A DNA stretch of 64,000 bases from positions 1,984,001-2,048,000 of the forward strand of contig NZ_CP034464.1 of NCBI RefSeq assembly GCF_003955735.1. The letters run 5' to 3'. The position numbers and the translations under genes are program-made. Below, piece after piece: positions 3,944-28,840 of this stretch. The notes under the pieces were generated by a model, which made no database searches, was not told where the DNA came from, and saw only the letters and a program-made list of their open reading frames with translations. This stretch comes from Undibacterium parvum (GTDB lineage Bacteria; Pseudomonadota; Gammaproteobacteria; Burkholderiales; Burkholderiaceae_D). Every line of letters starts with the position of its first letter. Position 1 is the stretch's first letter.

Positions 3944-5974
3944 CTATTCCTTAGGCCGACTCAGCAAAGCCTTCAGATTGGCTAGCCTATTTTGCGGCGT
4001 GATAGTCTCCGCTTCAGTCGGTATCGCGATGCCTTCATCGAGCTTCATCTCTTTGATGAAACGCGAGACATCGCAATGCACCGGTGCGCCGGCGCGTTTG
4101 CGCTTTTTGCACCAGGTGATGTGCAGGCTGCGCTGAGCCCGTGTGATGCCTACGTACATCAGACGCCGCTCTTCTTCTATGCGGGCAGCGATGGTTTCTA
4201 CCGGCGCATCCGGATCGCCTTTATGCGGCAAGATACCTTCTTCTACGCCGACCAGAAACACATGCGGAAACTCTAGCCCTTTGGAGGCATGCAGGGTCGA
4301 CATGCGAACCGCATCGGGCTCTTCGTCCTTGCCTTCCATCATCGTCATCAAGGCCACCATCTGGGTCAGATCGAGCAGGCTGCGATGCTCATCGGTGCCC
4401 TCTTTGCCGCCGCTGCCCTTGGTTTTCAGCCATTGGGTAAAGTCGAGTACGTTTTGCCACTTGCCTTGCGCCGCTTTATCGTCAAAGCTGTCGTACAGAT
4501 AGCCTTCGTAATTGATTTCTTTCATCAAGTCATCGAGTAATTCAGAGGCATGGCCTTCACGATGGGCATGCGCCTCGACCTGATTGATGAAGGTGCAAAA
4601 TTCACGCAGCGGGCGCAATTGGCGCTCGGTCAGTTTGGCTTCTATACCGCCTTTAAACACGGCGGCAAACAGTGAGCACTGCCATTGCCCGGAAAACGCG
4701 CCCAGCACCTCTAGTGTGGCCTGACCGACCCCGCGCTTGGGCGTGGTAATGGCGCGGATGAAAGCCGGATCATCGTCTTCATTGGCGATCAGGCGCAGAT
4801 AAGAAATGATGTCCTTGATCTCGGCTTTATCAAAAAAACTCTGGCCGCCCGAGATGGTGTAAGAGATGCGCTCTTTGCGTAGCGCCTTCTCGATCACGCG
4901 CGCCTGATGATTGCCGCGATACAAAATCGCATAGTCCGACCACTTAGCCTGGCGCTCGAATCTGTGTGCAGAAATCATGATGGCGATCTGATCGGCTTCC
5001 TGCTCATCGTCTTGCATGCCCAGCACCTTGACCGGGTCGCCCAGGCCATGCTCGGACCAGAGTTTTTTATCGAATAACTTGGGGTTGTTGCCTATCACTG
5101 AATTGGCGGCTTGCAGGATGCGGGTACTAGACCTGTAATTTTGCTCCAGCTTAATCAGCTTCAGATCCGGGAAATCCACTCCCAGAGTTTTCAGATTCTC
5201 GATAGTCGCGCCACGCCAGGCATAGATCGCCTGATCATCGTCACCCACCGCGGTAAACATAGGCTTCTTGCCGATGCCGGTGACCAGCAGTTTGACCAGC
5301 TCGTACTGGCAGGTATTGGTATCCTGGTATTCATCCACCAGCAGATAGCGCAGGCGGCGCTGCCACTTATCGCGCACTTGCTCGTTGATGCGAAACAGCT
5401 CTACCGGCAAGCGTATCAGATCATCGAAATCGACCGCCTGATAGGCCGAAAGCGTTGCCACATAGCTGCGGTAAATGCGCGCTGCGATGGCCTCGTCTTC
5501 ATCCTTGGCTTGCGCCAGTGCCACATCGGGTTCGACCAGACCATTCTTCCAGAGCGACATCGCGCCCTGAATGCGGCGTATCAATTGTTTGTCGGTGGTG
5601 ATGGCCAGATCCTGCACCAGCGAAAAACAATCGTCGCTATCCATGATAGAGAAGCGGTCCTTCAAGCCCAGCGCACGCGCCTCTTGCCGCAAAATTTTCA
5701 CGCCCAGCGAATGGAAGGTAGAGACCGTCAGTTGCTTGGCCTGACGCGGCTCTTTGAGCAATTTGGCAATCCGCTCCTGCATCTCTAGCGCAGCCTTATT
5801 GGTAAAGGTCAGCGCCGCGATGTGCTTGGGCTCGTAACCATGGATTTCGATCAGATTAGCGATCTTTTGCGTGATCACGCGCGTCTTGCCCGAGCCAGCA
5901 CCGGCCAGCACCAGACAAGGGCCGTCCATATAATTGACTGCATCGCGTTGCGGCTGATTGAGACCGTGGGACAT
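3944..5974 (-). CDS. rep: ATP-dependent DNA helicase Rep
   Basis: This 676-residue superfamily-1A helicase is very close in length to E. coli Rep. Walker A is AGAGSGKT at residues 24-31. Further motifs seen are LLVDEYQDTN (motif II), VGDDDQAIYAWRGA (III), LEQNYRSS (IV), STLHASKGLEFPHVFLVG (V) and EERRLMYVGITRAQ (VI). Rep unwinds 3'-5' and helps forks past bound proteins. The N-terminal GPCLVLAGAGSGKTRVIT block favours Rep over UvrD. The gene stands alone, with a REP-like palindrome in the spacer upstream of its start. Confidence 0.9.
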   Translation of the reverse strand: MSHGLNQPQRDAVNYMDGPCLVLAGAGSGKTRVITQKIANLIEIHGYEPKHIAALTFTNKAALEMQERIAKLLKEPRQAKQLTVSTFHSLGVKILRQEARALGLKDRFSIMDSDDCFSLVQDLAITTDKQLIRRIQGAMSLWKNGLVEPDVALAQAKDEDEAIAARIYRSYVATLSAYQAVDFDDLIRLPVELFRINEQVRDKWQRRLRYLLVDEYQDTNTCQYELVKLLVTGIGKKPMFTAVGDDDQAIYAWRGATIENLKTLGVDFPDLKLIKLEQNYRSSTRILQAANSVIGNNPKLFDKKLWSEHGLGDPVKVLGMQDDEQEADQIAIMISAHRFERQAKWSDYAILYRGNHQARVIEKALRKERISYTISGGQSFFDKAEIKDIISYLRLIANEDDDPAFIRAITTPKRGVGQATLEVLGAFSGQWQCSLFAAVFKGGIEAKLTERQLRPLREFCTFINQVEAHAHREGHASELLDDLMKEINYEGYLYDSFDDKAAQGKWQNVLDFTQWLKTKGSGGKEGTDEHRSLLDLTQMVALMTMMEGKDEEPDAVRMSTLHASKGLEFPHVFLVGVEEGILPHKGDPDAPVETIAARIEEERRLMYVGITRAQRSLHITWCKKRKRAGAPVHCDVSRFIKEMKLDEGIAIPTEAETITPQNRLANLKALLSRPKE

Positions 5975-6075: not shown

Positions 6076-6146
6076 GCCAGCGCGCATATCCCATGCGGCC
6101 TGTAGGCCAGACCGGCTGGAAACCCGCATGGGCTATGCGCGCTGGC
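6076..6146. repeat. REP-like palindrome, copy A
   Basis: Arms at 6076-6098 and 6124-6146 are inverted repeats matching at 22 of 23 bases (left arm core GCGCATATCCCATGCGG), around a 25-base centre containing AGGCCAG and GGCTGGAAA. The same core and centre recur at 33.4, 34.8, 45.3/46.5 and 55.3 kb, so this belongs to a dispersed intergenic family. It sits between rep and the small HTH gene. Confidence 0.85.
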
Positions 6147-6830: not shown

Positions 6831-6933
6831 TAGGACTTATGCAAAACCGCCCCAGCATCGTTGTATCCGCCTTGCCGTACTGATTACTGTCTTCGGCGGC
6901 AAGCCTAACTGGGACAATTTTGCCTAAGTCCTA
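6831..6933. mobile_element. MITE-like element with 16-bp terminal inverted repeats
   Basis: The left end TAGGACTTATGCAAAA (6831-6846) and right end TTTTGCCTAAGTCCTA (6918-6933) are inverted repeats with one mismatch, bounding a 103-base non-coding element. A similar end, TAGGACTCACGCAAAA at 34431-34446, lies beside a transposase fragment, so the element may be mobilised by that IS type. The rest of the 700-base spacer between the HTH gene and the deacetylase holds the heptamer repeat and a degenerate REP-like copy; I see no gene in it. Confidence 0.6.
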
Positions 6934-7081
6934 AAACACCGATAAAAGTTATTTATTTAATCATTTAGCCATGGCAAATGCAAGCTTTGATACATCTGCT
7001 TACACCGCTACTAATAGATGGGGCATTTGTTGGCGCTGTTTCTCTTTGCGGCTCGCGGTGTTTTTTCGGCGAACACCGGTT

Positions 7082-7138
7082 CACGCATATCCCATGTGGA
7101 TCCGCAGCTTAGACAGGCTGAGCCAGCCGCATGCAGGT
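7082..7138. repeat. Degenerate REP-like copy
   Basis: ACGCATATCCCATGTGG, then an AGACAGGCTG centre, then GCCGCATGCAGG, follows the layout of the family with several mismatches. It lies just upstream of the preferred deacetylase start, which argues that this stretch is not coding even though the frame is open. Confidence 0.4.
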
Positions 7139-7198
7139 ACAATAGTGATCTGCGGCAAATGCCGCTATCCCGAATTTCTTACCGCTTATTGCTCGATT

Positions 7199-8137
7199 GT
7201 GTCTGTCCTACTACCCTCATTTCGTTTTACCTTGCTGCGCCAACTCTGCTTGTTGTGTGGCCTGGTGCTTGCGCTGAACGTTCAGGCTGAAGATCTGGCA
7301 GCTGCCACGCCAACTGTCGCCTCAACTGCAACGCACAATGCAGCATCAACAGCAGCACCAATACGGTTTTTACTCACTTTTGATGATGGCCCTAGCGGTT
7401 CTGATTTCGCCAATCCTAGCGCGCGGGTGCTCGATGTTTTGGCCCGCAACAGTGTGCAAAGCGGTATCAAGGCGATTTTTTTTGTGCAGACCCGCGCCTA
7501 TCGCAGTGGCGCCACCGAGATCGGCAAAGCATTGCTGCAACGCGAACACGATGAGGGGCATATTTTAGCTTTTCATACAGCCACCACTAGTCACGCAAAT
7601 CATCGTTTTCTGGAGCCTGCCGAACTTGAGCTGGCACTCAGTGAAGGTTGTGCCGATTTGCAGGGCTATACCGGGTCAGCACCAAAATTGGTAAGGCCGC
7701 CATTTTGGAGCTACGATGCCCGCACGTTCGCCGCCTATCAGGCGCATGGCCTGTCTTTATTGTTGACCGATCTAAGCGCCAACGATGGCAAAATCTGGGG
7801 CGTCAATTTTAGTCTGAGCAAGCGCCGCAACATGTTGAAACAGCTTAGCGTGGTGCGCGAACTTTGGCGCAAGGATGAGATGCCGGTGGTCGATGGCAGC
7901 ACTCCTGTGGTGGTCGCCTTCCATGACCTGAATCGCTACACGGCGAGCGTCTTGGATGATTATTTACAAATCTTGCTTGAGGTCGCCAAAGAGCTGGAAA
8001 TGCCCACGGCGAGTAAGGCGTTTTACCACGAGACCGATGCGCTGGAGCGCGCCGCCTTGGCGCGCAGCGTACGCGATGCAAGCATTAAGCCACGATTACC
8101 GGGATTGTGGAATTGGCTGTGGCAGTCCGACAATTAA
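7199..8137 (+). CDS. NodB-type polysaccharide deacetylase family protein, secreted
   Basis: This is a protein of about 312 residues with a leader (RFTLLRQLCLLCGLVLALNVQAED) and the deacetylase motifs: FLLTFDDGPSG (metal-binding Asp pair), a His-rich AFHTATTSHANH, VRPPFWSYDAR, and a late VVVAFHDLN. NodB-fold enzymes remove N- or O-acetyl groups from glycans; the substrate is unknown. The start is uncertain: GTG 7199 sits just before the leader, while the frame is open from 6971 and that upstream part overlaps a degenerate REP-like sequence. The last 24 codons are duplicated at 14903-14977, and in that second copy the stop overlaps the PPTase stop. Confidence 0.75.
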   Translation: MSVLLPSFRFTLLRQLCLLCGLVLALNVQAEDLAAATPTVASTATHNAASTAAPIRFLLTFDDGPSGSDFANPSARVLDVLARNSVQSGIKAIFFVQTRAYRSGATEIGKALLQREHDEGHILAFHTATTSHANHRFLEPAELELALSEGCADLQGYTGSAPKLVRPPFWSYDARTFAAYQAHGLSLLLTDLSANDGKIWGVNFSLSKRRNMLKQLSVVRELWRKDEMPVVDGSTPVVVAFHDLNRYTASVLDDYLQILLEVAKELEMPTASKAFYHETDALERAALARSVRDASIKPRLPGLWNWLWQSDN

Positions 8138-8352
8138 GCCGTACACTGCGGCACGGCGATCTGAGGCGCGGCCGCTAAGGGCAAGGCAGTGCACAAGACG
8201 ATAGACAAGCTAGTATGGTTTAACTGAAATTGCTGCGCTGCTGGTGCTGCCGCGTTACAGCGCAGCTTGTAGTGCGCCTCTTTACTACTCCATGCCTGAT
8301 AAAAATTGAGGCGTTTTTCAGCTTCTGGTAAGGCCTTAAAAGAGGCTAATTC
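8063..8352. repeat. Direct repeat DR-L flanking the pilus cluster
   Basis: This 290-base block aligns without gaps to 14903-15192 (constant offset 6840), with 24 mismatches by hand count (about 92% identity). It contains the deacetylase 3' end and, on the other strand, the 3' third of a PPTase gene. Homology stops abruptly on both sides. Confidence 0.95.
8134..8352 (-). pseudogene. PPTase C-terminal fragment (truncated)
   Basis: The minus strand reads ELASFKALPEAEKRLNFYQA, then WSSKEAHYKLR and on to a TAA overlapping the deacetylase stop. This equals the last ~72 residues of the intact PPTase at 14974-15633 with mostly conservative replacements and no stop or frameshift. The N-terminal two thirds, including the GxDxE metal site, are absent. 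An open frame with conservative changes points to a recently truncated functional allele rather than a long-decayed copy. The remaining spacer to pilY1 (8353-8586) shows no gene and presumably holds the pilus promoter. Confidence 0.85.
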
Positions 8353-8586
8353 TCATTGCCTGATATTGAGAGGATGTAATAAGTACACTGGCTCTTAATT
8401 TTTAGAAAACACAAGTTCCAATGGAAGTCTCGCGCATTGTTAGCACAGGCCGGCAAGCGTAGGCGCACTAAATGTAAGTCAAATGTTACAGTTGCAACTG
8501 TCTGCGTGTTCCCTAGCATTCGAAGATATTTTCCCCAATATTTCCTGATAGAATGCGAAACTAGTGTCAAACCCTTGGAGATAGCC

Positions 8587-11500
8587 ATGAGCCAGCAACG
8601 TTTCAACTTAAATCAAATCAGTGTGGCGATCTGCCTCGCTTTTCCTGCGTTAACGTTGTCGGCTTTTGCCGCTGATTATTATCCTGCCTTGCCGCCTACG
8701 CTGTCGACTTCGGTTACACCGAACGTAATGTTGCACATTGACAACTCTGGTAGTATGCGGAATAACGGCGCAGATGGGCTGGAAAAAATGGCTTCCGCTC
8801 GGGGGGCTGCTAGGGATTTAATCGACAGAAATCCCACCCTTCGTTGGGGTCTTTTTTCATTCGACAAAAATGCAACTCAAGCAGGCGGGCGACTCGTGGC
8901 ACCAGTTGGTTCTACGGTAGCGGATCTTAAGAGTGCAATTGATACACTAAATCCTGATACATGGACTCCATTGGGGGAGGCATTGTATGAAATTACTCGC
9001 TATTTTGGTGGGCAAACCTCATATTTTTCGAAAATAGCTGGAAATTATACAAGCCCAATTCAATATCGCTGTCAGAAGAATTTTGTGATTGTGGTTACTG
9101 ATGGTGTCGCAACTTATGATGATACTCTTCCTGGGATAAATAATAAACCTGCTGAAACTTACACGTCTTACAATGCGTCAAATGTTGCGGAGAGCAGGAC
9201 ATTTAAAATTTGCAAAGACACGTCAAATGTTTCCTCGTATTTGACATGTCCGGCAAAAGTGGAAGGATCAACGGTTAATAATCCCTTCACCGGTACCGCC
9301 GATGATGCATCTAGCACCAATTACGGTCGCAGTATTAGGGATGTGGCAATGTATGCCTATGATGCGGATTTTCGGGTTGGTGGCAATGATAAAGATGGTA
9401 AGTCTTTTGATGATCCGAAATTTAGAAAACAAAATATCTCTACTTATACCGTCGGTTTTAATAACAATGATCCAATTTTGGTGGCCACCGCTACTGTTGG
9501 GCACGGAAGTTATTCTATGGCGAGCACAAAAGATGCGTTGGTCGCCTCCCTGCAAAATGCGATTGATAGTATCGTTGCGTCCACCTCGAACGCCGGTGGT
9601 GTGGCGACCCAAAGCGAAACCACGGCTGCCGGCAACCGGGTGTTCCAACCTGTGTTTAACCCCAATGGTTGGTATGGGGAATTACGTTGTTTCCTATTGA
9701 ATGCTGATGGTACAGTCGGGGCAGGATGTACTCCTAATCCTAAGGCGGTTATCCCCGCAGCGGCTAGTCGTAAAGTATATTCTTCTAAAGTGGCGGGAAC
9801 CACGCCCACTACGACTGCGTTTGATTTTGTCATCAATAGTTCGTTTATGACACCAGCCCAAAAATTATTGTTGGGTGCAGATGCAACAGCGCAGAATAAT
9901 ACGATAAATTTTGTCCGTGGTGACGAGACCAACACAAGCTTTCGTTCACGCGCAGGCATATTCTTGGGCGATATCGTTGACGGACAGCCTGTGGTGGTGA
10001 CAAAACCCAGCGGCTCGACAAACGACGGCGCTTACAGCAGTTTTATCTCCAGTAATGCCGCGCGTAATATGGTCTTGGTGGGCGCTAACGACGGCATGAT
10101 GCATGCATTTGACATCGACAAAATGACAGAGTTGATGGGCTATATCCCTTCAACGGTATACCCAAATTTGAAAGCATTGACGGCGAAAGATTATGGAGTC
10201 AGCGCGGGCACGCCACACGCTTACCACGTGAACGGCAGTATGCGTCAGCAAGATATTAAAGCAGGTGGCGCCTGGAAGACCATCGTTGCCGGTGGTCTAG
10301 GTCAGGGCGGACGCGGATATTATGCAGTCGATGCCACTAGTGCAACACAAATAACTGGCCTCCCGTCTTCAGTTGTGAAATGGGAATGGAATAACGTCAA
10401 TGACACCGGCATGGGCTATGCATTCGGAGTTCCGGTGATCTACAACGTCAGAAATGGTGACAAAGCAGTAGTGCCTGCCGTGATACTCTCGAATGGTTAT
10501 CAGAATAAATGGGTTGATGGCGCTACGACACAAGTGGCCAATGAGTCCGTGTTGTATATACTTAAAGCCGACGATGGAACTCTACTCAAAAAAATAGTGG
10601 TGCCGAATAGCACCGGGCTATCGTCACCGGCGGGTCTGGATTTTGGTCAGGATGGTGTGCTTGATTACGTTTATGCCGGTGATGTTGATGGCAAGCTGTG
10701 GCGCTTTGATTTGACATCTACTGACGCCGTCAATTTTAAAGTAGTTACCACGCCGATCTTTGATGCCGGTGCTGGTCACCCTATCGTCATGCGTCCGGGT
10801 ATCATGGCTGCGAATAAAGCATCGGATGGCACCTCCTTAGGCAATGTTATATTTTTTGGCACTGGTCAGTTATTGACCAATCTTGATCGCTCCGATATCA
10901 CGACGCAAACCTTATACGGCGTCCTCGATAAAATGGAGGCATCTCCGACTACCGTGACCCTTGCTAATTTACAGCAGCAGGCTTTTGCGACGCCTACTAT
11001 TAGTTTAACTTCCAAGCGGGTGGGTACCTATCGCAAAATGGACACGACGACTGCTGCCGCTAAAGCCTTTGATTTGGCTTCCGCCGCAAACTGGGCTGCG
11101 GCTACACCGAAACTTGGTTGGTATTTGGATCTCCCTGACTCCAGTGAACGCTTGGTCACTTCGCCTATGGTGTTTGATGACAAAGTTTTGTTTGGTACAG
11201 GTGTGCCCGTGAGTACCGAAAAATGCCTGCCAGGCGGTAAGGGCTGGATCATAGGCTTAAATCCTATGAGTGGCTCGGTAACCCGCAAGGCAAACAAGGG
11301 AACAGCTTCGGCTTTTAGTTTTATTGACATCGATGGCGATGGCAAATCGTCAGCAGCTGACAAAATCGGGACCGGTATTGATGATTATCTGAGTGCCTAT
11401 CAAAAAGATGGTATTCCTACCGAAATGAGTTATGTTGCAACCACAGCAAAGCTGACTGGCCCGATAAATCAGAACACTGATGGCTGGGATGATATCGGTA

Positions 11501-11721
11501 GTGTGATCGCTCTTAGGGAGGCAAATTCCATGGCGGTGTACACCGGGAATGCTCCGGCAGGAACTAAGCGCGGCAAGACTATCTTACGGCCGCCATCGGA
11601 AGGAAAAGGCTCTATCTATGGTGGCACGGTAGGTAATGACGACTTAGGAAAAGACTCTTTGACCGGGCCGGGTGCGGATAAAATACGCATCGAAACTACC
11701 CTCTGGCGCGAGATTAAATAA
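8587..11721 (+). CDS. pilY1: Type IV pilus tip adhesin / assembly protein PilY1
   Basis: This 1044-residue secreted protein starts at ATG 8587 with GGAG 6 bases upstream. After the signal peptide (ICLAFPALTLSAFAA) comes a von Willebrand A-like domain with the MIDAS motif DNSGS at residues 52-56 and a later VVTDGVATYDD. The C-terminal half is the PilY1/PilC beta-propeller, with a Ca-binding loop (DFGQDGVLDYVYAGDVDGK) near residues 680-700. A second acidic loop, DIDGDGKSSAADKIG, is near residue 913. PilY1 works with the minor pilins at the pilus tip in adhesion, twitching and surface sensing. It is first in its operon, and its TAA overlaps the next ATG by one base. Confidence 0.92.
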   Translation: MSQQRFNLNQISVAICLAFPALTLSAFAADYYPALPPTLSTSVTPNVMLHIDNSGSMRNNGADGLEKMASARGAARDLIDRNPTLRWGLFSFDKNATQAGGRLVAPVGSTVADLKSAIDTLNPDTWTPLGEALYEITRYFGGQTSYFSKIAGNYTSPIQYRCQKNFVIVVTDGVATYDDTLPGINNKPAETYTSYNASNVAESRTFKICKDTSNVSSYLTCPAKVEGSTVNNPFTGTADDASSTNYGRSIRDVAMYAYDADFRVGGNDKDGKSFDDPKFRKQNISTYTVGFNNNDPILVATATVGHGSYSMASTKDALVASLQNAIDSIVASTSNAGGVATQSETTAAGNRVFQPVFNPNGWYGELRCFLLNADGTVGAGCTPNPKAVIPAAASRKVYSSKVAGTTPTTTAFDFVINSSFMTPAQKLLLGADATAQNNTINFVRGDETNTSFRSRAGIFLGDIVDGQPVVVTKPSGSTNDGAYSSFISSNAARNMVLVGANDGMMHAFDIDKMTELMGYIPSTVYPNLKALTAKDYGVSAGTPHAYHVNGSMRQQDIKAGGAWKTIVAGGLGQGGRGYYAVDATSATQITGLPSSVVKWEWNNVNDTGMGYAFGVPVIYNVRNGDKAVVPAVILSNGYQNKWVDGATTQVANESVLYILKADDGTLLKKIVVPNSTGLSSPAGLDFGQDGVLDYVYAGDVDGKLWRFDLTSTDAVNFKVVTTPIFDAGAGHPIVMRPGIMAANKASDGTSLGNVIFFGTGQLLTNLDRSDITTQTLYGVLDKMEASPTTVTLANLQQQAFATPTISLTSKRVGTYRKMDTTTAAAKAFDLASAANWAAATPKLGWYLDLPDSSERLVTSPMVFDDKVLFGTGVPVSTEKCLPGGKGWIIGLNPMSGSVTRKANKGTASAFSFIDIDGDGKSSAADKIGTGIDDYLSAYQKDGIPTEMSYVATTAKLTGPINQNTDGWDDIGSVIALREANSMAVYTGNAPAGTKRGKTILRPPSEGKGSIYGGTVGNDDLGKDSLTGPGADKIRIETTLWREIK

Positions 11722-12236
11722 TGAAGAATTCAGGTCAAAAGGCTGGGTCCCATCAATATACTGCAGGTTTTACCTTAATTGAATTGATGATGACATTAAG
11801 TATTGCGGCGGTGTTAATGGCCATAGGGGTGCCTAGTATGCGAGATCTGATACGTGATGCGCGCTTATCCTCTCAGTCAGACTTGCTAGTGCGGACTATT
11901 AGTGCAGCACGTATGGATGCGATTAAACAGCGTAGCAATTTTAAGGTCTGCCCGGCAGCAACGCCCAATTCAGCCACGGCTTGCTCTACCCTTGCGACTG
12001 ATTGGACGAAAGGTTGGGTTCTTATTAACGGTACTACGATCAGCCAGCGTTTGCTTGGCAAGTCCGGCGTTACGATTACTAGCGCTGCGAGCGCTGTAGA
12101 GTTTGGTGCGACCTTAGGCACACCCACTGCAGCCAGCAGTTTTGTCCTTTGCGTGTCAGGAAGAAAACAACAAACGGTTAACGTAAGTGCCTCCGGGCAT
12201 GTCGATAAACGAATTGATAGCACGGTATGCCCATGA
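11721..12236 (+). CDS. fimT: Type IV minor pilin, GspH/FimT-like
   Basis: This 171-residue prepilin has a type III signal: a short basic leader ending in G, then FTLIELMMTLSIAAVLMAIG with the conserved Glu at +5, cleaved by PilD. The GspH/FimT family is indicated by the RDARLSSQSDLLVRTISAARMDAIKQ region. The C-terminal body has Cys pairs (CPAAT, CSTLA, CVSG, CP) likely forming disulphides. It is coupled to pilY1 by a TAATG overlap and to pilV by an overlap at its stop. Its role is priming of pilus assembly at the tip complex. Confidence 0.88.
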   Translation: MKNSGQKAGSHQYTAGFTLIELMMTLSIAAVLMAIGVPSMRDLIRDARLSSQSDLLVRTISAARMDAIKQRSNFKVCPAATPNSATACSTLATDWTKGWVLINGTTISQRLLGKSGVTITSAASAVEFGATLGTPTAASSFVLCVSGRKQQTVNVSASGHVDKRIDSTVCP

Positions 12237-12757
12237 AACGAATGAAAAAGCAAAGTGTGATGTGTGACGCTAAGGTGCAAAGTGGTATGACTCTATTGGA
12301 AGTCATGATCGCGATCTTGCTACTTGCATTCGGTTTGATAGGTCTGGGTGCGACCCAGTCTAAAAGCATAGTCATGAACCAGAGTGTGTTTTATCGCAGC
12401 ATTGCGGTTGATCTTGGGAATGACTTGGCCGATAGAATTCGCGCGCTTCGCACGCCTTTTGTTGCCAGTGCCGATGCCACCCCAGCACCAGGAAAGCCAG
12501 CTGATTTTTCTAAATGTAGCCCGAACCCGGCAAGTTGTAGCAATCAGGATGCGGATAGAAATACCTATCAGGCTTTGGTGAATGCGGAAATGCTCGAGTG
12601 GAACACTGTTCTGAAATCTCAATTGCCCGCTGCAAGTTTTACACTGAGTGCGGTAGCCGCTGCTAACCCCGATTATTTTCGCTATACCTTGACGATTACC
12701 TGGTTGGATAATCGTAAAGATAATTCCAATTCTAGCTATAGCGTGGTAATCGAATGA
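12227..12757 (+). CDS. pilV: Type IV minor pilin PilV
   Basis: This is a prepilin of 174-176 residues: the leader ends SG, then MTLLEVMIAILLLAFGLIGLGATQ with Glu at +5, the PilV/MSHA-like pattern in which a Leu-rich helix is followed by GATQSKSI. Two in-frame ATGs (12227 and 12233) are possible; 12233 gives the typical ATGA overlap with the fimT stop. The downstream gene starts inside its stop (ATGA). It belongs to the minor-pilin tip complex with FimT, PilW and PilX. Confidence 0.88.
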   Translation: MPMKRMKKQSVMCDAKVQSGMTLLEVMIAILLLAFGLIGLGATQSKSIVMNQSVFYRSIAVDLGNDLADRIRALRTPFVASADATPAPGKPADFSKCSPNPASCSNQDADRNTYQALVNAEMLEWNTVLKSQLPAASFTLSAVAAANPDYFRYTLTITWLDNRKDNSNSSYSVVIE

Positions 12758-13512
12758 TGAATATGCGCAAAAATGGTTTTTCTTTAGTGGAGCTCCTAGT
12801 GGCGATCACTATTTCCATGGTGGCCTTGGTGGCGGTGAGCGCCTCCTATGTGTCGTCACGGCAAACTAACAAAGTTCAGGGCATGCAGAATCCGCTAACT
12901 GAAGAGGGACGTTATGCAATTTCCATGATACAGCGTATCGTCTCTCAGGCTGGTTTTCGGCAGACACCAGTGAGTGCCATGCCAGCAGATCGTATCGAAG
13001 TTGCAGCCAACGTCCTCACCGCCAGATTTGAGGCCGATGGCAGTAATCTGATTGCTTGTGATGGATCGGTGCCGCTAGCCGGTGCGGCCCAGACACTGGT
13101 GATACAAAAGACCAATACCGGCAAGTTGCAATGCGGTACGGTTGACTGGATCGCTCCGGCAATATCCGGGACCGGAAATAGTAGTGAAGTGGTGGATTTT
13201 TTAGTCAAGTTTGGAATTGATACCGGCCCGGCCTTAACCCCTGAAAATTTTGGTTGCGGAATAGCCAACGCTGGTACTAAGCCGCGCGACTGCATCGCGG
13301 ATTCTTATGTTAGCACTTTGCCTTCAGGAGTAAGCGCTGATCAAATAGTGTCGGTGAAAGTTTGCTTGCTACTACGCTCAGAGGCACTTGATTCATCGGT
13401 AGTGAAGCCAGCCTTGGTCAAAGATTGCTCTGGTACAGATATCGCGAACACACAAAATGACAGAAAATTATATCGTGCTTTTTGGACCACTGTTTTGCTC
13501 AAGAATCGTTAG
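12754..13512 (+). CDS. pilW: Type IV minor pilin PilW
   Basis: This 252-residue prepilin has the leader NMRKNG followed by FSLVELLVAITISMVALVAVSASYVSSR. The length and the segment EEGRYAISMIQRIVSQAGFRQ fit PilW, the longest of the minor pilins. It starts in an ATGA overlap with pilV and ends eight bases before the pilX start. Internal Cys residues (CDG, CGT, CGI, CIAD) suggest disulphide-stabilised loops. It is expected to help bring PilY1 to the pilus tip. Confidence 0.88.
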   Translation: MMNMRKNGFSLVELLVAITISMVALVAVSASYVSSRQTNKVQGMQNPLTEEGRYAISMIQRIVSQAGFRQTPVSAMPADRIEVAANVLTARFEADGSNLIACDGSVPLAGAAQTLVIQKTNTGKLQCGTVDWIAPAISGTGNSSEVVDFLVKFGIDTGPALTPENFGCGIANAGTKPRDCIADSYVSTLPSGVSADQIVSVKVCLLLRSEALDSSVVKPALVKDCSGTDIANTQNDRKLYRAFWTTVLLKNR

Positions 13513-13520
13513 GAATTTTT

Positions 13521-14033
13521 ATGAATAAAAAGCAAAAACATCAAAAAGGCTTTGTCTTAATCGTATCCTTGATAATGTTGGTGGCAGTAACGCTATTTGT
13601 CATGGCAGGTATGAGATCCTCCACTGTTAGTGAACGTATGGCAGGTAGCCACATGGATAGAGGTCGCGCCAAAATGGCGGCAGAGCAGGCTTTGGTTCAA
13701 GGTTTGGCCGCGCTAAAGACTGGCGGCACAATTTGTGTTGAAGATGGTTGTACGACGGCCAATCTTGCCACTACCGGAGCGGCAGTTACTACGACAGTCA
13801 TGCCTAGCGTCTGGAGTGATACTAATGCCGTGGATGTGACAATCGCCACCGGGCAGTTAACTAGCGCGAAGTTTTTGATTAACTGGCTAAATAATTCTGT
13901 CTTCACCACGTCGACGCCATCAACCGGCAAAGAAGCTTGCAAAGCTTATAGCATTATGGGACGTGGCGTGGGTCTGGCAAGTACTTCTGTGGTTGTACTG
14001 CAAACCATCGCTTATGTCTGCCCTACCGATTAA
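13521..14033 (+). CDS. pilX: Type IV pilus assembly protein PilX
   Basis: This 170-residue protein starts at ATG 13521 with AGGA 6 bases upstream; the frame is open from 13482 inside pilW, but that part is not leader-like. The N-terminus KGFVLIVSLIMLVAVTLFVM has the PilX pattern, lacking the canonical Glu5 of other pilins, followed by MRSSTVSERMAGSHMDRGRAKMAAEQAL, the typical PilX_N block. It belongs to the minor-pilin tip complex and is translated from its own ribosome-binding site. Confidence 0.87.
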   Translation: MNKKQKHQKGFVLIVSLIMLVAVTLFVMAGMRSSTVSERMAGSHMDRGRAKMAAEQALVQGLAALKTGGTICVEDGCTTANLATTGAAVTTTVMPSVWSDTNAVDVTIATGQLTSAKFLINWLNNSVFTTSTPSTGKEACKAYSIMGRGVGLASTSVVVLQTIAYVCPTD

Positions 14034-14048
14034 TGATTGGAGTTTTAA

Positions 14049-14453
14049 ATGAGAAATTGGCGTATGTCTAAATGGTCTGTGGAAAAAGGTTTTAGCCTGA
14101 TTGAACTAATGATAGCCTTGGCGATTCTGGGTATTATTTTAGCGGTCGCTTTGCCGTCTTATCGAGGAAATGTGATCAAGGCGAGGCGCGGCGATGCACA
14201 GCAAATTTTAAGCAGCCATGCGCAGGCGCTCGAGCGTTATTTCACGACTAATGGCAGATATGTGACGGCTGCGGCTGGGACTACATGTGGTGTTGCCGCA
14301 CAGGCAGCAACCGCAAGTTACACTTTTTCGGCAACCTGCACCGAAAATACCTTCACGGTTACCGCTACGCCGGTTAGCGGTTCAGGGCAAGCTAGTGATG
14401 GTACTCAAACGCTAACAAATACTGGCGTAACTACCGGTACTTGGGCATCGTAA
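14049..14453 (+). CDS. pilE: Type IV pilin PilE-like
   Basis: This 134-residue prepilin starts at ATG 14049 with GGAG 6 bases upstream. The leader ends KG, then FSLIELMIALAILGIILAVALPSY, a classical pilin helix with Glu at +5, and a small globular body with two Cys (CGVAA and CTEN) that can form the D-region disulphide. As the last gene of a pilY1 cluster it is most likely the PilE-type minor pilin rather than the major pilin. A strong terminator follows. Confidence 0.87.
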   Translation: MRNWRMSKWSVEKGFSLIELMIALAILGIILAVALPSYRGNVIKARRGDAQQILSSHAQALERYFTTNGRYVTAAAGTTCGVAAQAATASYTFSATCTENTFTVTATPVSGSGQASDGTQTLTNTGVTTGTWAS

Positions 14454-14507
14454 ACAGGTTTCCCACTGTCTATTTTACTGATGTTAGTGCGCGGTATAAG
14501 TGGACCG

Positions 14508-14546
14508 AAAAAAGCGTAATTCCAGCAAAAGGAGTTGCGCTTTTTT
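14508..14546 (+). terminator. Rho-independent terminator after pilE
   Basis: The arms 14508-14523 and 14531-14546 pair along 16 bases (two G-U pairs) around a short CAGCAAA-like loop, followed by a T-run (14541-14547). It lies 55 bases past the pilE stop and closes the pilus operon. Confidence 0.85.
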
Positions 14547-14549
14547 TGT

Positions 14550-14902
14550 TTAACGATCCTTGAGTAAGGTTTTACTTTCAGGCGATTTAATCCTAGATCC
14601 ATCCACCATCATCTTCTTCTTGCAATGCGGGCAGGAATTTCCGGCTACCTACCAAGCGGATATTTGTTCGCGTGGTCTGTCTACGGCACGACGGACCTGG
14701 CATTGGCTGGTATCGGTGGCTTCCAACTCAGAATACAAGCGTAAGCGCTTTGATAGCGACCGCCCCCATGCTCACTCGCAGCTTGGGGAAATGTGCTCAG
14801 ACAGATGCGCTACCGCCTCGACCATGCGTCTCGTATTGCACGATGGGCAAACTCCGTGCCCTTTGCATGAAAAGGCCGCCAGAAAATCATAAGCACAAGC
14901 AT
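14550..14902 (-). pseudogene. IS91-like transposase remnant
   Basis: On the minus strand, 14902-14772 reads FLAAFSCKGHGVCPSCNTRR followed by MVEAVAHLSEHISPSC and a stop. This matches the N-terminal zinc-binding block of IS91-family (Y2/HUH) transposases. Its 5' end is cut exactly where the direct repeat begins (14903). Further along, minus-strand 14640-14550 carries another Cys-rich segment (CPHCKKKMMVDGSRIKS) ending in a stop, whose relation to the first is uncertain. There is no intact transposase. This is the only content I see between the pilE terminator and the repeat. Confidence 0.6.
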
Positions 14903-15192
14903 CGCAGCGTACGCGATGCAAGCAGTAAGCCAAAATTGCCGGGACTCTGGAATTGGCTGTGGCAGTCCGACAATTAAGCCGCCCACTGCGGCACGGAGAT
15001 CTGAGGCACGGCCGCTAAGGGCATGGCACTGCACAAGACGATAGACAAGCTAGTATGGCTTAACTGAAATTGCTGCGCTGCTGGTGCAGCCGCATTGCAG
15101 CGCAGCTTGTAGTGCGCCTCTTTGCTACTCCATGTCTGATAAAAACTGAGGCGCTTTTCAGCTTCCGGCAAGGCCGTAAAAGACGCTAATTC
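14903..15192. repeat. Direct repeat DR-R flanking the pilus cluster
   Basis: This is the partner of 8063-8352, same orientation and gap-free. It holds the 3' end of the intact PPTase and a 24-codon remnant of the deacetylase C-terminus (SVRDASSKPKLPGLWNWLWQ, positions 14906-14977), still in frame to the same stop. Confidence 0.95.
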
Positions 15193-15633
15193 GCTGCTGT
15201 CAAAAATCTGTTCCGCCAATCCTGCCAGATCGCGCTGGCCATCGAGCAACTCGATATCCAAGCCCAAGGCGCTTTGCATGCTCAGTGCACAAGCGATCCA
15301 GGGACCGCTGTGCGAGAGGCTGAAATGCGGCAGTGGCAGGCCTGTATCAAGGAGTAGTAACGGCGCATTATGTGGGCGCTCACGCAGCACTATCTGCGAC
15401 GGCGTGAGCGCCAAAGATTCGGCTAGCACGCGGCGCAATAGCCAGCGCCCCAACAGAAACTGACGCTGACGCTCTGGCCTTATAAAACGCGCATAACGTT
15501 GCTGCTCATCGACATTGAGCCACGCCAAACTGGCGACCAACACCGCCTCATTGACGCAGCGACCGTCTAACAGCCAGATGGTGGCGCTGTTGGTGCTATT
15601 AGCATTATTTGTCGGCGGCGCTGCTTCATTCAT
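14974..15633 (-). CDS. 4'-phosphopantetheinyl transferase
   Basis: This 219-residue Sfp/AcpT-type enzyme transfers phosphopantetheine from CoA to the serine of ACPs, here presumably the two ACPs of the aryl-polyene operon. The metal-binding motif LGLDIE and the catalytic WSSKEAHYK (W-x-x-K-E-x-x-x-K) are both intact. It is the last gene of the APE operon, 10 bases after the KS gene, and matches the PPTase present in other ape loci (apeB by position and function, name uncertain). Its last third is duplicated at 8134-8352. Its stop overlaps the remnant of the deacetylase stop (TTAA). Confidence 0.88.
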   Translation of the reverse strand: MNEAAPPTNNANSTNSATIWLLDGRCVNEAVLVASLAWLNVDEQQRYARFIRPERQRQFLLGRWLLRRVLAESLALTPSQIVLRERPHNAPLLLLDTGLPLPHFSLSHSGPWIACALSMQSALGLDIELLDGQRDLAGLAEQIFDSSELASFTALPEAEKRLSFYQTWSSKEAHYKLRCNAAAPAAQQFQLSHTSLSIVLCSAMPLAAVPQISVPQWAA

Positions 15634-15643: not shown

Positions 15644-16882
15644 CTAAGCAGAGTAGCGTTTAAAAATCAAAGAAGTATTGATACCGCCAAAGGCGAAATT
15701 ATTCGACATCACATAATCGGTTTGTAAAGACCGGCCTTCCTGCATGATGTAATCCAAGGGGGCGCATAGGCTATCGACCTGCTGCAGATTGATGGTAGGG
15801 GCAAACCAGCCCTCACGCATCATTTGTATACTGATCCAGGCCTCCAGCGCACCACAGGCGCCCAAGGTGTGGCCCATATAGCTTTTCAAGGAACTGATAG
15901 GGGTGTGCTCACCGAATAGCCGCGCAGTGGCTTGCGATTCGGCGATATCGCCTTGTTGGGTACCGGTGCCATGCGCATTGATGTAACCGATATCGGATGG
16001 CTGCAAAGCGGCGTCAGCGAGCGCCAGTTGCATGGCTGTTTGCATGGTCGTCGCGTTGGGTTGCGTGACGTGGCAGCCATCGCTATTGGTGCCAAAACCG
16101 ACTAGCTCAGCGTAGATAGTGGCGCCGCGCGCCTGTGCATGCACCATGTCTTCGAGTATCAGGCAACCGGCACCCTCGCCGATCACCAGGCCATCGCGCT
16201 TGGCATCAAACGGGCTAGGGGTAGTGGCGGGCGCATCATTCTTAACGCTGGTAGCAAACAGCGTATCGAATACCGCCGCTTCGGTCGCGCATAATTCTTC
16301 GGCACCGCCGGCAATCATGGCAAGCTGCTTGCCGGCGCGTATCGCCTCATACGCATAGCCTATGCCCTGACTGCCCGAAGTACAGGCGCTCGAGGTCGTA
16401 ATCACACGTCCGGTTACACCAAAAAATACACCTATATTCACCGGTGCGGTATGCGCCATCATCTTGATATAGGTGGTGGCGTTAATCCCCTTGGTGCTGC
16501 GGTCTTCCATCATGCGGCCAAAATCGCCGATGGCACTCGGGGTGCCGGCGGAGGAGCCGAACGCCACGCCCATCTGTCCGCTTTTCAGCAGTGCATGGTC
16601 CAGCAACCCAGCATCGAGTAAGGCTAATTCACTGGCACGGGTAGCCATCAGAGCGACCCGGCCCATGCTGCGCATCGTTTTACGCGTGTATTTATCCGAC
16701 AAGGCAAACTCGGATGCCGGCGCTCCTAGCTTGGTGTTCAGACCATCGTAATCGGCCCACTCTGCCATAGGTACGATGGCATTGCGATACTCGCCCAGAC
16801 GCGCACGTATGCTACTCCAGTCATTGCCTAAAGGACTAATACCAGCCATGCCGGTCACGGCGACGCGACGCATATTTTCCAT
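15644..16882 (-). CDS. apeR: Beta-ketoacyl-ACP synthase, ApeR-like
   Basis: This 412-residue FabF/KAS-II-type ketosynthase has a complete Cys-His-His triad: Cys167 in TSSACTSGSQ, His304 in INAHGTGTQQGD and His338 in SYMGHTLGACGA. In APE systems ApeR is an accessory ketosynthase, separate from the ApeO-ApeC elongating pair, and is thought to act early in chain formation. It lies between the ketoreductase and the PPTase, as expected from the colinear apeO-P-Q-R order. Its start is 40 bases after the apeQ stop. Confidence 0.85.
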   Translation of the reverse strand: MENMRRVAVTGMAGISPLGNDWSSIRARLGEYRNAIVPMAEWADYDGLNTKLGAPASEFALSDKYTRKTMRSMGRVALMATRASELALLDAGLLDHALLKSGQMGVAFGSSAGTPSAIGDFGRMMEDRSTKGINATTYIKMMAHTAPVNIGVFFGVTGRVITTSSACTSGSQGIGYAYEAIRAGKQLAMIAGGAEELCATEAAVFDTLFATSVKNDAPATTPSPFDAKRDGLVIGEGAGCLILEDMVHAQARGATIYAELVGFGTNSDGCHVTQPNATTMQTAMQLALADAALQPSDIGYINAHGTGTQQGDIAESQATARLFGEHTPISSLKSYMGHTLGACGALEAWISIQMMREGWFAPTINLQQVDSLCAPLDYIMQEGRSLQTDYVMSNNFAFGGINTSLIFKRYSA

Positions 16883-16922
16883 CTATATTTCCATTCTTAT
16901 TTCGAAACGTCTTGCAACTCGT

Positions 16923-17672
16923 TCAAGCCATGCCACCATTCACCGAGATCACTTGTCGGGTCACATAGGCAGCATCCTTACTCATTAAAAAACTCACTAC
17001 GGCAGCCACTTCTTCGGGTTTGCCGACGCGCCTTGCCGGTATCAGCTTGAGCGCCTCTTCCATAGGCACATCACTGATCATATCGGTCTCTATCAAACCT
17101 GGTGCCACGCAATTGACGGTAATCTCACGTTTTGCCAACTCCAGCGCCAAAGCCTTGCTGGCACCGATGATACCTGCCTTAGCAGCGCTGTAATTGACCT
17201 GACCACGGTTACCGATCAAGCCCGAGACTGACGCCAAGGTGACGATACGGCCAGGCTTGCGACGCCGCACCAAAGGCATGGTGAGCGGATTAAGCACATT
17301 GAAAAAGCCATCCAGATTAGTCTGCAACACAATATCCCAATCCTCGCCCGACATCGCTGGAAACGCATTGTCACGCGCCACGCCGGCATTACAGACCACC
17401 CCGTAATAACAGCCATGCTGTTCGACGTCCGCCAATAAAATGGCGGCAGTCTCTTCACGCTGACTAATATCAAATTGTAATACGCGCACACTGCGCCCCA
17501 GCGCCACGATACTGTCCGCTACCGCATCGGCCTCAGCGCGCTGGCTGCGGCAATGCAAGACGATGTCATAGCCATCGCGTGCCAGCCGCAAAGCAATTGC
17601 CTTGCCTATGCCGCGTGAAGAACCGGTGACCAGGACGCTATTGCCGCTGTTTTGCTGATTTTCATTACTCAT
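16923..17672 (-). CDS. apeQ: 3-ketoacyl-ACP reductase, ApeQ-like (FabG family)
   Basis: This 249-residue short-chain dehydrogenase has the NADPH motif TGSSRGIGKA at the N-terminus, NAG in the middle, and a Ser...Tyr-x-x-x-Lys centre (SVSGLIGNRGQVNYSAAKAG). It also has the FabG-like NCVAPGLIETDM. It reduces the beta-keto group on each round of polyene synthesis before dehydration. It follows the dehydratase gene by nine bases, consistent with tight co-translation. It is a dedicated paralogue, not the housekeeping FabG, judged by context. Confidence 0.87.
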   Translation of the reverse strand: MSNENQQNSGNSVLVTGSSRGIGKAIALRLARDGYDIVLHCRSQRAEADAVADSIVALGRSVRVLQFDISQREETAAILLADVEQHGCYYGVVCNAGVARDNAFPAMSGEDWDIVLQTNLDGFFNVLNPLTMPLVRRRKPGRIVTLASVSGLIGNRGQVNYSAAKAGIIGASKALALELAKREITVNCVAPGLIETDMISDVPMEEALKLIPARRVGKPEEVAAVVSFLMSKDAAYVTRQVISVNGGMA

Positions 17673-17681
17673 AAAAAGACC

Positions 17682-18140
17682 CTACATTTCCTGTATAAAT
17701 TCTGCGACATCATCCGGTTGAAACACGGTGATGGTGGCATGCGCCAGCGCGACGCCATCGAGCATCGCACTGTCATGGATACTACATTCAAATGCCGCCA
17801 AACCATTCTCGCCTTGCAGCAAGCGCGTGATCCTCACCACTAAGACGCTGTCTAGCGTAAACAGCGCCGTGCTGGCCTGGTAACGTCGCGCGCCAAGCAA
17901 GAAACCCACTTTGACTGCATCACCGCGCTGTCTGGCCAAAAACCCGGCGTGCGCGGCAATCGCCTGCGCCATATATTCGACACCGACCCAAGCCGCCACA
18001 CCAGAGCCATCGCAGAACATACTGCTGGCCCGTATTGTGACTTCGGCACTCAAACTCTCTTCATCTGCCAGCAGCACTTTATCCAGCAAGACCATAGGCC
18101 CTGAATGCGGTACCAGCTCGCGTAGATCGGGATAGCTCAT
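17682..18140 (-). CDS. apeP: Hotdog-fold 3-hydroxyacyl-ACP dehydratase, ApeP-like
   Basis: This 152-residue hotdog protein is related to FabZ/FabA-type dehydratases. The N-terminal LVPHSGPMVLLDKV provides the His typical of the ApeP subgroup, and VAAWVGVEYMAQAIAAHAG is the central helix motif. ApeP works with ApeI to dehydrate the hydroxyacyl chain and leave conjugated double bonds. Its ATG overlaps the apeO stop (ATGA). The first half of the partner pair is the fused C-terminal domain at 28841. Confidence 0.83.
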   Translation of the reverse strand: MSYPDLRELVPHSGPMVLLDKVLLADEESLSAEVTIRASSMFCDGSGVAAWVGVEYMAQAIAAHAGFLARQRGDAVKVGFLLGARRYQASTALFTLDSVLVVRITRLLQGENGLAAFECSIHDSAMLDGVALAHATITVFQPDDVAEFIQEM

Positions 18141-19324
18141 GCCACTCTCCCAAACAAGAGGCTTGCGTTAGAGCCGCCAAAAGCAAAAGAATTACTCATC
18201 GCCCAGCGCAAGGTTCGCCCCAGACGACTACTCGGCAGCGCCAGCTTGAGAGCTGGTAAAGCCGGATCAGGAATGCCATCCCAGAGGTGCGGGGGTAAAT
18301 AGCCCTCAGGATTATCCTCTTGCAGCGCCAGCCAACACAAACCAGCCTCAAGTGCCGCAGCAGCACCCAAGGCATGCCCGGTTAAAGGTTTGGTCGAGCT
18401 AGTCCACACCGTGCTGCCAAAAATATCGGCGATCACGCGTGACTCCATCGCGTCGTTCTGTAGTGTGGCAGTGCCGTGCAGATTGATGTAATCGATATCC
18501 TCTGGTTGTAAGCCAGCGCGCTGTAAGGCCTGCGTCATGGCCAGACGCGCACCGCCACCGGCCGGATCGGGTGCCGACATATGATGACCATCTGAGGATT
18601 CGCCCCAGCCGCACAGTGCCACCGCAGCCGGCGCGCGACTCATCAAAAATAAGGCAGCACCTTCGCCTATATTGATGCCATTACGATTCGCGCTGAGCGG
18701 ATTACAGACTTGGCTACTCACCGATTCTAGCGCTGAGAATCCGGCGATGGTAAATGCGCATAAACTATCAACGCCGCCCGTCAGCACCACGTCGCACAGG
18801 CCCATCTTGATCAAACGCGCAGCGCTGGCCATCGCTTTGGCGCTCGATGAACAAGCACTGGAATGCACATAGGCCGGGCCGCTGATACCTAATTCTGCTG
18901 CCAGCATGGCCGCTGGCGAGCCCATCTCTTGCTGCGCATAATGAAAATCTGCGGGCAGAGTTTGCTCTAAAGCATATTGCCGTAATGCTGATTCTGTACC
19001 TGCAACACCAGAGGTACTGGTGCCAATCACAATACCGATACGGTCTGCGCCGTAACGCGCAATTGCAGCATCGAGCGCCGGACGGATCTGTGCCAGCGCG
19101 GCCAGCGCCAGCTGATTATTCCGGCTGCGTTGGGTAATCGGCAAGGCGGTCATAGACGGCAATGTGCCAGCGACACAACCCAGCGCTAAGACCCGGCCAG
19201 GCGAATAGGCATCGCTGAATGTCAGACTAGTGCCACTCGTGCCGCTATCAAACAGACGCAGTTTGACCTGCTCGGTGCTGTTACCGAGTGCGCAGACAAT
19301 TCCACAGTGATTTAAATACAGCAT
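18137..19324 (-). CDS. apeO: Beta-ketoacyl-ACP synthase, ApeO-like (elongating KS)
   Basis: This 395-residue ketosynthase has an intact triad: Cys158 in HSSACSSSAKA, His283 in NLHGTATLQND and His317 in PLTGHALGAAAA. In aryl-polyene type II PKS systems ApeO pairs with the chain-length factor ApeC, and the pair extends the aryl starter with malonyl-ACP. The candidate ApeC is at the 5' end of this same operon, 13 kb upstream. The gene begins 14 bases after the DUF3261 lipoprotein gene. Confidence 0.85.
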   Translation of the reverse strand: MLYLNHCGIVCALGNSTEQVKLRLFDSGTSGTSLTFSDAYSPGRVLALGCVAGTLPSMTALPITQRSRNNQLALAALAQIRPALDAAIARYGADRIGIVIGTSTSGVAGTESALRQYALEQTLPADFHYAQQEMGSPAAMLAAELGISGPAYVHSSACSSSAKAMASAARLIKMGLCDVVLTGGVDSLCAFTIAGFSALESVSSQVCNPLSANRNGINIGEGAALFLMSRAPAAVALCGWGESSDGHHMSAPDPAGGGARLAMTQALQRAGLQPEDIDYINLHGTATLQNDAMESRVIADIFGSTVWTSSTKPLTGHALGAAAALEAGLCWLALQEDNPEGYLPPHLWDGIPDPALPALKLALPSSRLGRTLRWAMSNSFAFGGSNASLLFGRVA

Positions 19325-19338
19325 AGTGTGTTTCTGGC

Positions 19339-19905
19339 TTAAGGTTCGCTGGCTACAGACTGTATGCTGAGCCTGTATTGGTAACGCAAATTATTCAAAA
19401 TAATACTACCGCTCCAGCGTGGCATACCGCTGTAGTCTATGGTCGCGACGATGGTATCGGAAAAATACAGGCTACGTCGCAAACCCTGGTCCTGCACCCG
19501 CCAACCAGCCGGTAAGGCAGCGCTGATGGCATCCGCAGGCCACAGACAGAGTTGCAAGTCTTCCAAGACGTCTTCAGCACGCACTTGCGCCGGTAGCATC
19601 ACGTGTCGCCATGAGCTCAAATTATTGCCATCATAATGCAGGCTCAGCACGCGTTGACCGAAGGCCAGACCGACCAGCTCCAGATGCTCAGCATCTACTT
19701 CCAGCGCCGCATCGAGTTCATCGATACGGCCATTGCGCTCCACCTTCAGGTGCTGCTGCAAAGAGATAGCTTGCCCCAGCAGCGCCGGACTCAATTGTAA
19801 GCCCAGTCTGGCATTTGGCTGGCTAGTCAGGCTAGTGCAAGCACTCAATGCCAGCAAGGCTGGCAGCGCAAGCAGCCGCAGCCAGCGTCTTATACTGGCG
19901 TACAT
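19339..19905 (-). CDS. apeN: DUF3261 lipoprotein, ApeN-like
   Basis: This is a 188-residue lipoprotein with signal peptide and lipobox (LLALPALLALSAC). The remainder shows the DUF3261 pattern (LVGLAFGQRVLSLHYDG, and LNNLRYQYRLSIQSV at the end). DUF3261 proteins occur in APE loci and are presumed to help place the finished pigment in the outer membrane, alongside the LolA-like and MMPL proteins. The start overlaps the end of the FAD-enzyme gene by 16 bases. Confidence 0.8.
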   Translation of the reverse strand: MYASIRRWLRLLALPALLALSACTSLTSQPNARLGLQLSPALLGQAISLQQHLKVERNGRIDELDAALEVDAEHLELVGLAFGQRVLSLHYDGNNLSSWRHVMLPAQVRAEDVLEDLQLCLWPADAISAALPAGWRVQDQGLRRSLYFSDTIVATIDYSGMPRWSGSIILNNLRYQYRLSIQSVASEP

Positions 19906-23463: not shown

Positions 23464-24068
23464 AATAGCGCCGCTTCTTCTGCCAACATGGCAGTCTCGC
23501 CAGTTTGTATCGCAGAAAACACGATGTGACTACGGTCGCCGCTAGCCTCATTGATAGAGATATTTTTAACGTAAGCAGCACCATCCAGGCTGATGGCACC
23601 AATCGCCTTAGCCAGGGCAGGCTCGCGTGCCTTGAGCGCAACCTTCCAACTATGTTGATCGGCACTGCCTTCTACTTCAAACAAATTCTCCAGTTGCGCC
23701 AGATCACCCGACAACAGCGAGAACAGCACGCTATTGATCATACGCACGGTTGGTTCTTGTTTGGCATCCAGACGCATGGCGACTCGGTCACCCTGAAAAT
23801 GCACGATCTCTTCCCGCGTCAGACGCAGAGTATTCGGGAACGGTTGCAGCGTGCGCCACAAGACGCCCTTACCTGCCACCACACAAAAACGCCCATTCGA
23901 TGCCAGCGGTTTTTTAATACCGGTGAGTTGTTTGCTCTGATCAAATCTTCCGCATAAAATCGCCGGCTTCGCCAACATAGACTGTATCTTGGCCACTGGT
24001 GCCGCAGCAAACGTAGGCAGTGCGGCGCTCATCACGGCCATACTAATAAACAGCTGTTTGAGTGTCAT
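23460..24068 (-). CDS. apeL: LolA-like periplasmic lipid carrier, ApeL-like
   Basis: This 202-residue secreted protein has a leader (LFISMAVMSAALPTFAAAPV) and a LolA-type beta-barrel pattern. The KGVLWRTLQPFPNTLRLTREEIVHF segment corresponds to the LolA region that gates the lipid cavity. It probably chaperones the aryl-polyene lipid across the periplasm to the outer membrane. Its start overlaps the thioesterase stop by four bases, and it is followed by the MMPL gene, the order seen in other ape clusters. Confidence 0.83.
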   Translation of the reverse strand: MTLKQLFISMAVMSAALPTFAAAPVAKIQSMLAKPAILCGRFDQSKQLTGIKKPLASNGRFCVVAGKGVLWRTLQPFPNTLRLTREEIVHFQGDRVAMRLDAKQEPTVRMINSVLFSLLSGDLAQLENLFEVEGSADQHSWKVALKAREPALAKAIGAISLDGAAYVKNISINEASGDRSHIVFSAIQTGETAMLAEEAALF

Positions 24069-28818: not shown

Positions 28819-28840
28819 GCTGTCTTAAAAAAAGGCCTAC

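Follow-up and report, generated by a model that had tools for sequence, protein, structure and literature searches.

Direct repeats of a deacetylase–phosphopantetheinyl transferase gene junction around a second pilus tip cluster of Undibacterium parvum: a possible recombination scar within a genomic island

In complex class 1 integrons, the 3'-CS is duplicated around ISCR1: direct repeats of a resident segment enclose foreign genes, and an ISCR-type transposase gene lies beside one of the repeats, with its 5' side turned toward it. The locus described here, in a 64-kb window (the whole stretch of DNA analyzed) of the U. parvum genome G000, has a comparable layout with the same orientation of the transposase sequence. 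Unlike in complex integrons, the transposase is present only as an internal scrap, the repeat is a junction of chromosomal genes, the arms have diverged by 8%, and the cargo consists of pilus genes; the likeness appears to be one of layout, and membership of the class is not claimed. The accessible text of PMC7707992 explains complex class 1 integrons by ISCR1 circles that entered through homologous recombination, and the accessible part of PMC13393415 supplied the features of IS91/ISCR elements used as the basis of comparison. The locus also resembles single-crossover duplications and homology-facilitated illegitimate recombination, in which homology is one-sided and duplications of a few hundred base pairs follow a single crossover (PMC3240628, accessible part). 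Those were laboratory events, whereas here diverged sequences supplied the arms, and the event has to be reconstructed. Between the repeats, the genes have the order and domains of PilY1-FimT-PilV-PilW-PilX-PilE operons, but the cluster is the second such set of its genome. The locus is instructive, but it is not a new kind of element. Its features are as follows, in window coordinates.

3944..5974, minus strand: uvrD/rep-type helicase gene, the left border gene (PF00580, 1.6e-83)
6076..6145, no strand: REP-like 70-nt palindrome at the left border, with others at 33394-33463 and 34772-34841 (repeat search)
6971..8137, plus strand: intact polysaccharide deacetylase gene (PF01522, 3.9e-16), which in relatives lies at the outer end of the polyene locus
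8063..8352, no strand: left repeat (L), in which the 3' end of the deacetylase gene meets a 3' remnant of the PPTase gene (alignment, independent repeat search, genome search)
8134..8352, minus strand: PPTase 3' fragment, 72 residues and stop (last 73 codons), no internal stops (codon alignment)
8353..8586, no strand: left joint and pilY1 upstream region
8587..11721, plus strand: pilY1, with VWA and PilY1 propeller domains (PF05567, 5.6e-41; PF13519, 1.7e-8); the start is the ATG before MSQQRF in an ORF from 8437
11721..12236, plus strand: fimT-like minor pilin gene (ORF; co-linear homologs)
12227..12757, plus strand: pilV-like minor pilin gene (ORF; co-linear homologs)
12754..13512, plus strand: pilW minor pilin gene (87 homologs, several named PilW; co-linear homologs)
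13482..14033, plus strand: pilX-like minor pilin gene (ORF, likely start about 13521; co-linear homologs)
14049..14453, plus strand: pilE-like pilin gene with a ComP_DUS family match (PF16732, 1.6e-18; PF07963, 1.4e-9)
14595..14723, minus strand: 3' scrap of a trhO-like sulfurtransferase (rhodanese) gene, stop inside (72% to a 44-aa fragment of G014)
14738..14902, minus strand: internal scrap of an ISCR/IS91-type transposase gene, stop inside (DNA match to own-genome copies; NF052416)
14903..15192, no strand: right repeat (R), in which a 3' remnant of the deacetylase gene (14903-14977) meets the 3' end of the PPTase gene (alignment, searches)
14974..15633, minus strand: intact 4'-phosphopantetheinyl transferase (PPTase) gene (PF01648, 2.5e-10; PF22624, 5.3e-9)
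15644..31145, minus strand: gene cluster that we take to be of the aryl-polyene/flexirubin type, with ketosynthases, FabG, dehydratase, FAD enzyme, MMPL-type exporter, aromatic ammonia-lyase, and others (four members profile-tested; co-linear homologs in relatives)
34920..35402, plus strand: AtaL-like gene, the right border gene (PF08982, 2.9e-30; matched in 41 of 43 genus genomes)

The initial annotation, made from the sequence alone, had described gap-free 290-bp direct repeats with 24 mismatches, and a pairwise alignment returned the same coordinates and counts (91.7% identity). The ends are sharp, with identity falling to ~25% beyond L and R, and the same ends were recovered by an independent repeat search. 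In the complete 4,910,324-bp (4.91-Mb) G000 genome, the repeat occurs at these two places and no more (second copy, E 8e-117). The ORFs agree with the annotated content of the arms. Each carries the 3' ends of the convergent deacetylase and PPTase genes, the deacetylase being intact at L and the PPTase at R, where the deacetylase is reduced to its last 25 codons. The overlapping stops (TTAA) had been pointed out for the right copy and are present there, but they are equally present in L. Inside the repeats the gene remnants have no frameshift and no internal stop, in keeping with the conserved frames annotated. The mismatches are scattered along the whole repeat, and the longest perfect run is 34 bp. 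They affect 18 codons of the PPTase gene, 10 of them nonsynonymously and 8 synonymously, and 4 codons of the deacetylase gene, 2 in each class. Judged from P0208, a homolog at 93% identity, the true start of the deacetylase probably lies further inside its ORF. Upstream of this gene, a 104-bp stretch at about 6830-6933 recurs at L095 18092-18195 (89%) and partly in L080 and L087.

Deacetylase matches were found in 14 of the 78 genomes searched: G000, 12 other genomes of the genus, and, weakly, G049. In nine of these 12 Undibacterium genomes (G004, G008, G020, G023, G025, G030, G031, G034, and G039), the PPTase gene follows tail-to-tail and uninterrupted, the stops ranging from a 42-bp overlap to a 48-bp spacing. 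The annotation had called the junction once contiguous, and its undisturbed state in these relatives confirms this. As to the three exceptions, G009 and G024 reach a contig edge, and the deacetylase of G040 has a different neighbor. Polyene genes lie beyond the PPTase in all nine junction-bearing relatives, recognized in G008 by ketosynthase matches only. In Ren11W, the deacetylase P0210 and the PPTase P0091 are each on a 105,185-bp contig, presumably the same one, with PilW P0006 on a 274,926-bp contig; P0092 and P0209 are each on a 2,032-bp contig, again presumably one. The distance from PPTase to ketosynthase is 10 bp here (15634-15643) and ~0.5–1.2 kb between matches in relatives where both genes are present, which suggests that relatives may have one or two extra genes in between. 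A literature search of limited reach found no paper combining Undibacterium with aryl polyene.

Between L and R, dS is 0.18 and dN is 0.06 (dN/dS 0.34). Codons with amino acid changes numbered 12, against 16.8–17.0 expected when neutral change was simulated from each arm (5,000 draws apiece; P 0.025 and 0.019). The PPTase homologs P0088 and P0089 match at 89%. Over the 72 PPTase residues, the nearest full-length homolog, P0088, differs from L at 5 and from R at 7, whereas L and R differ from each other at 10; at these 10 residues, P0088 equals L at 6 and R at 4. A tree groups L with P0088 (support 89/77, branch not starred). On the other side, P0089, P0091, and P0092 show fewer differences to R than to L (8 versus 10, 17 versus 20, and 22 versus 25, respectively), and R is also altered at otherwise constant residues. 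The dN/dS ratio, the deficit of amino acid changes, and the closeness of L to P0088 moderately support the reading that L and R are two alleles and not a fresh local copy. The comparison of synonymous and nonsynonymous changes, named as a check in the initial annotation, thus speaks for two alleles through dN/dS, but a single duplication giving L and R as sisters stays unrejected in the AU test (p 0.246).

The annotated order pilY1-fimT-pilV-pilW-pilX-pilE between the repeats is upheld by the ORFs, by eight co-linear outside loci, and by family matches of PilY1, PilW, and PilE; genes with the prepilin N-terminal motif and the PilY1 propeller stand in one row. PilY1 was matched in 39 of 43 genus genomes. 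The window type is limited to G000 and G014 (88% over residues 327-1047), the other matches in the genus being partial at 24–47%, and PilW homologs at 96% and 70% occur in other Undibacterium, the closer one being P0002 of an Undibacterium sp. on a 385,854-bp contig. G000 holds another PilY1 at G000:C1:1056571, 33% identical to that of the window, which makes the cluster a divergent second set of minor-pilin and pilY1 genes. The cluster probably gives type IV pili an alternative set of tip adhesin and minor pilins. In a collection of named genomes, which may omit near relatives, near-full-length PilY1 matches (47–58%) were found at eight loci, in Chitinilyticum, Dechloromonas (two), Deefgea, Craterilacuibacter, Azonexus, Jeongeupia, and Uliginosibacterium. 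Each of these loci repeats the six pilus genes in the order seen here; deacetylase, PPTase, and polyene genes were not found on the retrieved stretches of these loci, setting aside p43424 and isolated weak matches to other genes of the window. The G+C content of the cluster is 48.1%, against 52.5–54.4% for the left flank, deacetylase, polyene genes, and right flank. A plasmid origin was rejected: among 72,556 plasmid records, 4 gave weak and partial matches to PilY1, none of them over 80% of its length.

Everything between uvrD and the ataL-like gene (about 5975-34919) is a genomic island at a variable site, the same flanks being empty or otherwise filled in relatives. A full or nearly full uvrD ortholog is present in 42 of 43 genus genomes; none was found in G021, and that of G014 is truncated at the 5' end. 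By gene coordinates, the uvrD–ataL spacing is 28,945 bp (28.9 kb) in G000, 102–277 bp in 11 of the 43 genomes, 1,363–5,887 bp in 15 (G035 via a partial ataL match), and long in G014 (22,664 bp, 22.7 kb) and G038 (46,395 bp, 46.4 kb). The remaining 14 have the two genes on separate contigs or hundreds of kilobases apart, or one gene was not found. DNA alignment places the empty site between window positions 6020 and 34880 in G007, joined with 160 bases between, and between 5982 and 34919 in G020, with 93 bases between. G025 has a 1.3-kb filling with a presumably dioxygenase-like ORF, and the interval of G038 lies at 4301972-4348366. The REP-like palindromes were rejected as island ends, being unspecific with at least 40 genomic sites among 349 candidates; the copy at 34772 forms a strong hairpin (z -6.45), and the palindrome also adjoins uvrD in G006. 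A tRNA-linked integration was rejected as well, with no tRNA within the 64-kb window.

Between G000 and G014, dS is 0.73 for the six pilus genes and 0.72 for uvrD; this equality is only suggestive, given a wide spread from gene to gene (ataL, 1.14; the genes at 35420, 38402, 55336, and 62689, 0.96, 1.33, 1.32, and 0.23, respectively). The pilus cluster adjoins uvrD in G014 too, a genome without L or R, the deacetylase, or a PPTase of this type. The cluster seems to have diverged along with uvrD, well before L and R parted. Since its dS far exceeds that of the repeats, it is probably older than the repeat pair, unless conversion has homogenized the latter. The initial annotation had the cluster inserted into the junction, probably by homologous recombination, an interpretation that is partly supported: the contiguous junction and the two-allele signal agree with it, whereas the apparently greater age of the cluster suggests that the order may have been reversed. 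The G014 assembly is doubtful here, with its uvrD cut at the front. Although G014 is another genome at the species level, one of its blocks has 0 mismatches over 16 kb to window 18000-34047 (14 bases absent), and a second has 2 to window 45591-53845 (8.3 kb), which fall within the final 846 bases. The edges of these blocks are patchwork, with surroundings at 75–88%. They may represent a chimeric assembly or a very recent transfer. Because of the patchwork edges, G014 was set aside as proof of an old polyene locus at the site.

Two scraps lie between the pilE-like gene and R. The 44-aa fragment of G014 that resembles the first matches NF003703 at residues 242-276 of 280 (E 8e-8), and the scrap gives sub-threshold zinc-ribbon matches alone in Pfam. 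TrhO was not found beside pilE in the outside loci L097-L105, and Rhodanese_C detected no intact trhO in 43 genus genomes; this model was positive in 5 of 14 controls and is blind to the scrap as well. The second scrap, an inner piece of the transposase gene cut on both sides, is 77–78% identical at the DNA level to two copies in the same genome (E 3e-40 and 2e-43) and matches NF052416 at positions 87-122 of 509 (E 1.5e-8), with PF14319 below the cut-off (1.1e-4). The similarity to the transposase extends to 14936-14939, that is, 34–37 bp into R. This overlap places the right joint where transposase and deacetylase resemble each other, as expected for a short-homology join. At the left joint (8352/8353), there is no recognizable homology, and 8353-8580 matches nothing in the retrieved loci except G000's own.

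Here, we tentatively propose that the arrangement is a recombination scar within the genomic island, joining DNA of related strains, and not a mobile element bounded by ends of its own; we consider this reading plausible, if short of probable. The variable uvrD–ataL site would have held the foreign pilus tip cluster, already resident beside uvrD, and to its right the polyene locus, which ends outward in the deacetylase–PPTase junction and whose deacetylase would have been cut at the transposase scrap. In a later step, a related strain would have contributed DNA comprising uvrD, the deacetylase, the junction, and part of the PPTase gene, which would have crossed over in uvrD. Its other end would have been joined end-on before pilY1, illegitimately, by one-sided recombination. 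The outcome would be one intact gene and one remnant per arm, the 290-bp overlap appearing as a direct repeat. Several facts stand against this proposal: L and R as sisters are unrejected, R is the closer arm to P0089, P0091, and P0092, gene conversion could make the repeats appear young, and the left joint is devoid of recognizable homology. In addition, the experimental duplications of this size in the accessible part of PMC3240628 arose by single crossover of circles, not by one-sided linear events.

If the scar reading is right, the locus is a readable case of a bacterium acquiring an additional set of pilus tip genes with no mobile element involved, via a variable site, a foreign cluster, and recombination between strains that stitched a neighboring locus around it. 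It also carries a caution, as direct repeats flanking a cluster need not signal insertion at that spot. Excision of the cluster through the repeats is conceivable, the longest perfect run being 34 bp; direct repeats could permit its loss, and the alternative tip would then be a switchable trait.

A Campbell-type single crossover is the reading closest to the initial annotation and is possible, though doubtful. A circle bearing the pilus genes, both scraps, and part of the junction from another allele would have recombined with the resident junction. Such an event yields precisely two arms, each with a single intact gene, and accounts for the two-allele signal; in the accessible part of PMC3240628, circles gave 109–950-bp duplications in Escherichia coli. 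A recent insertion confined to the G000 lineage does not predict the pilus genes beside uvrD in G014, at the same dS as uvrD, and PilY1 was not found at 80% of its length or more in the plasmid records. Rather unlikely is an old insertion or duplication common to G014, with the arms then kept alike by gene conversion. Repeats within one genome can convert, the dS of the repeats is far under that of the pilus genes, and the pilus genes occupy the same site in G014; nevertheless, mismatches occur throughout the repeat without a long perfect tract, P0088 is closer to L than to R, and G014 (assembly doubtful) has neither the arms nor the deacetylase nor this PPTase.

Capture of the pilus tip cluster and a junction piece by an ISCR/IS91-type rolling-circle element, with entry of the circle into another strain's junction by homologous recombination, seems improbable; if true, the architecture would be that of a complex class 1 integron in chromosomal form, carrying adhesion genes and no resistance gene. 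Slighter still are the chances of a local tandem duplication covering both junction and pilus genes, of which later deletions would have left two partial copies. The AU test leaves room for it, but two or three deletions are required, and the dN/dS and the deficit of amino acid changes are ill-suited to long neutral decay. We give very little credence to an assembly artifact fusing loci of two strains in G000. The zero-mismatch blocks of the related G014, with their patchwork edges, indicate that mixed samples occur in the group, but G000 consists of one contig, the genes at the joints are intact, patchwork is absent, and a misjoin would be expected to merge, not double, an alike stretch. A transposon target-site duplication was rejected, as the arms are 290 bp long and 8% diverged, and the ORFs between them are pilus genes, with no intact recombinase gene and, of a transposase, only the scrap with its stop. 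Elsewhere in G000, two ISCR/IS91-type transposase genes (L188 and L189, at G000:C1:2278004 and 2282689) lie 4.7 kb apart and possibly enclose cargo.
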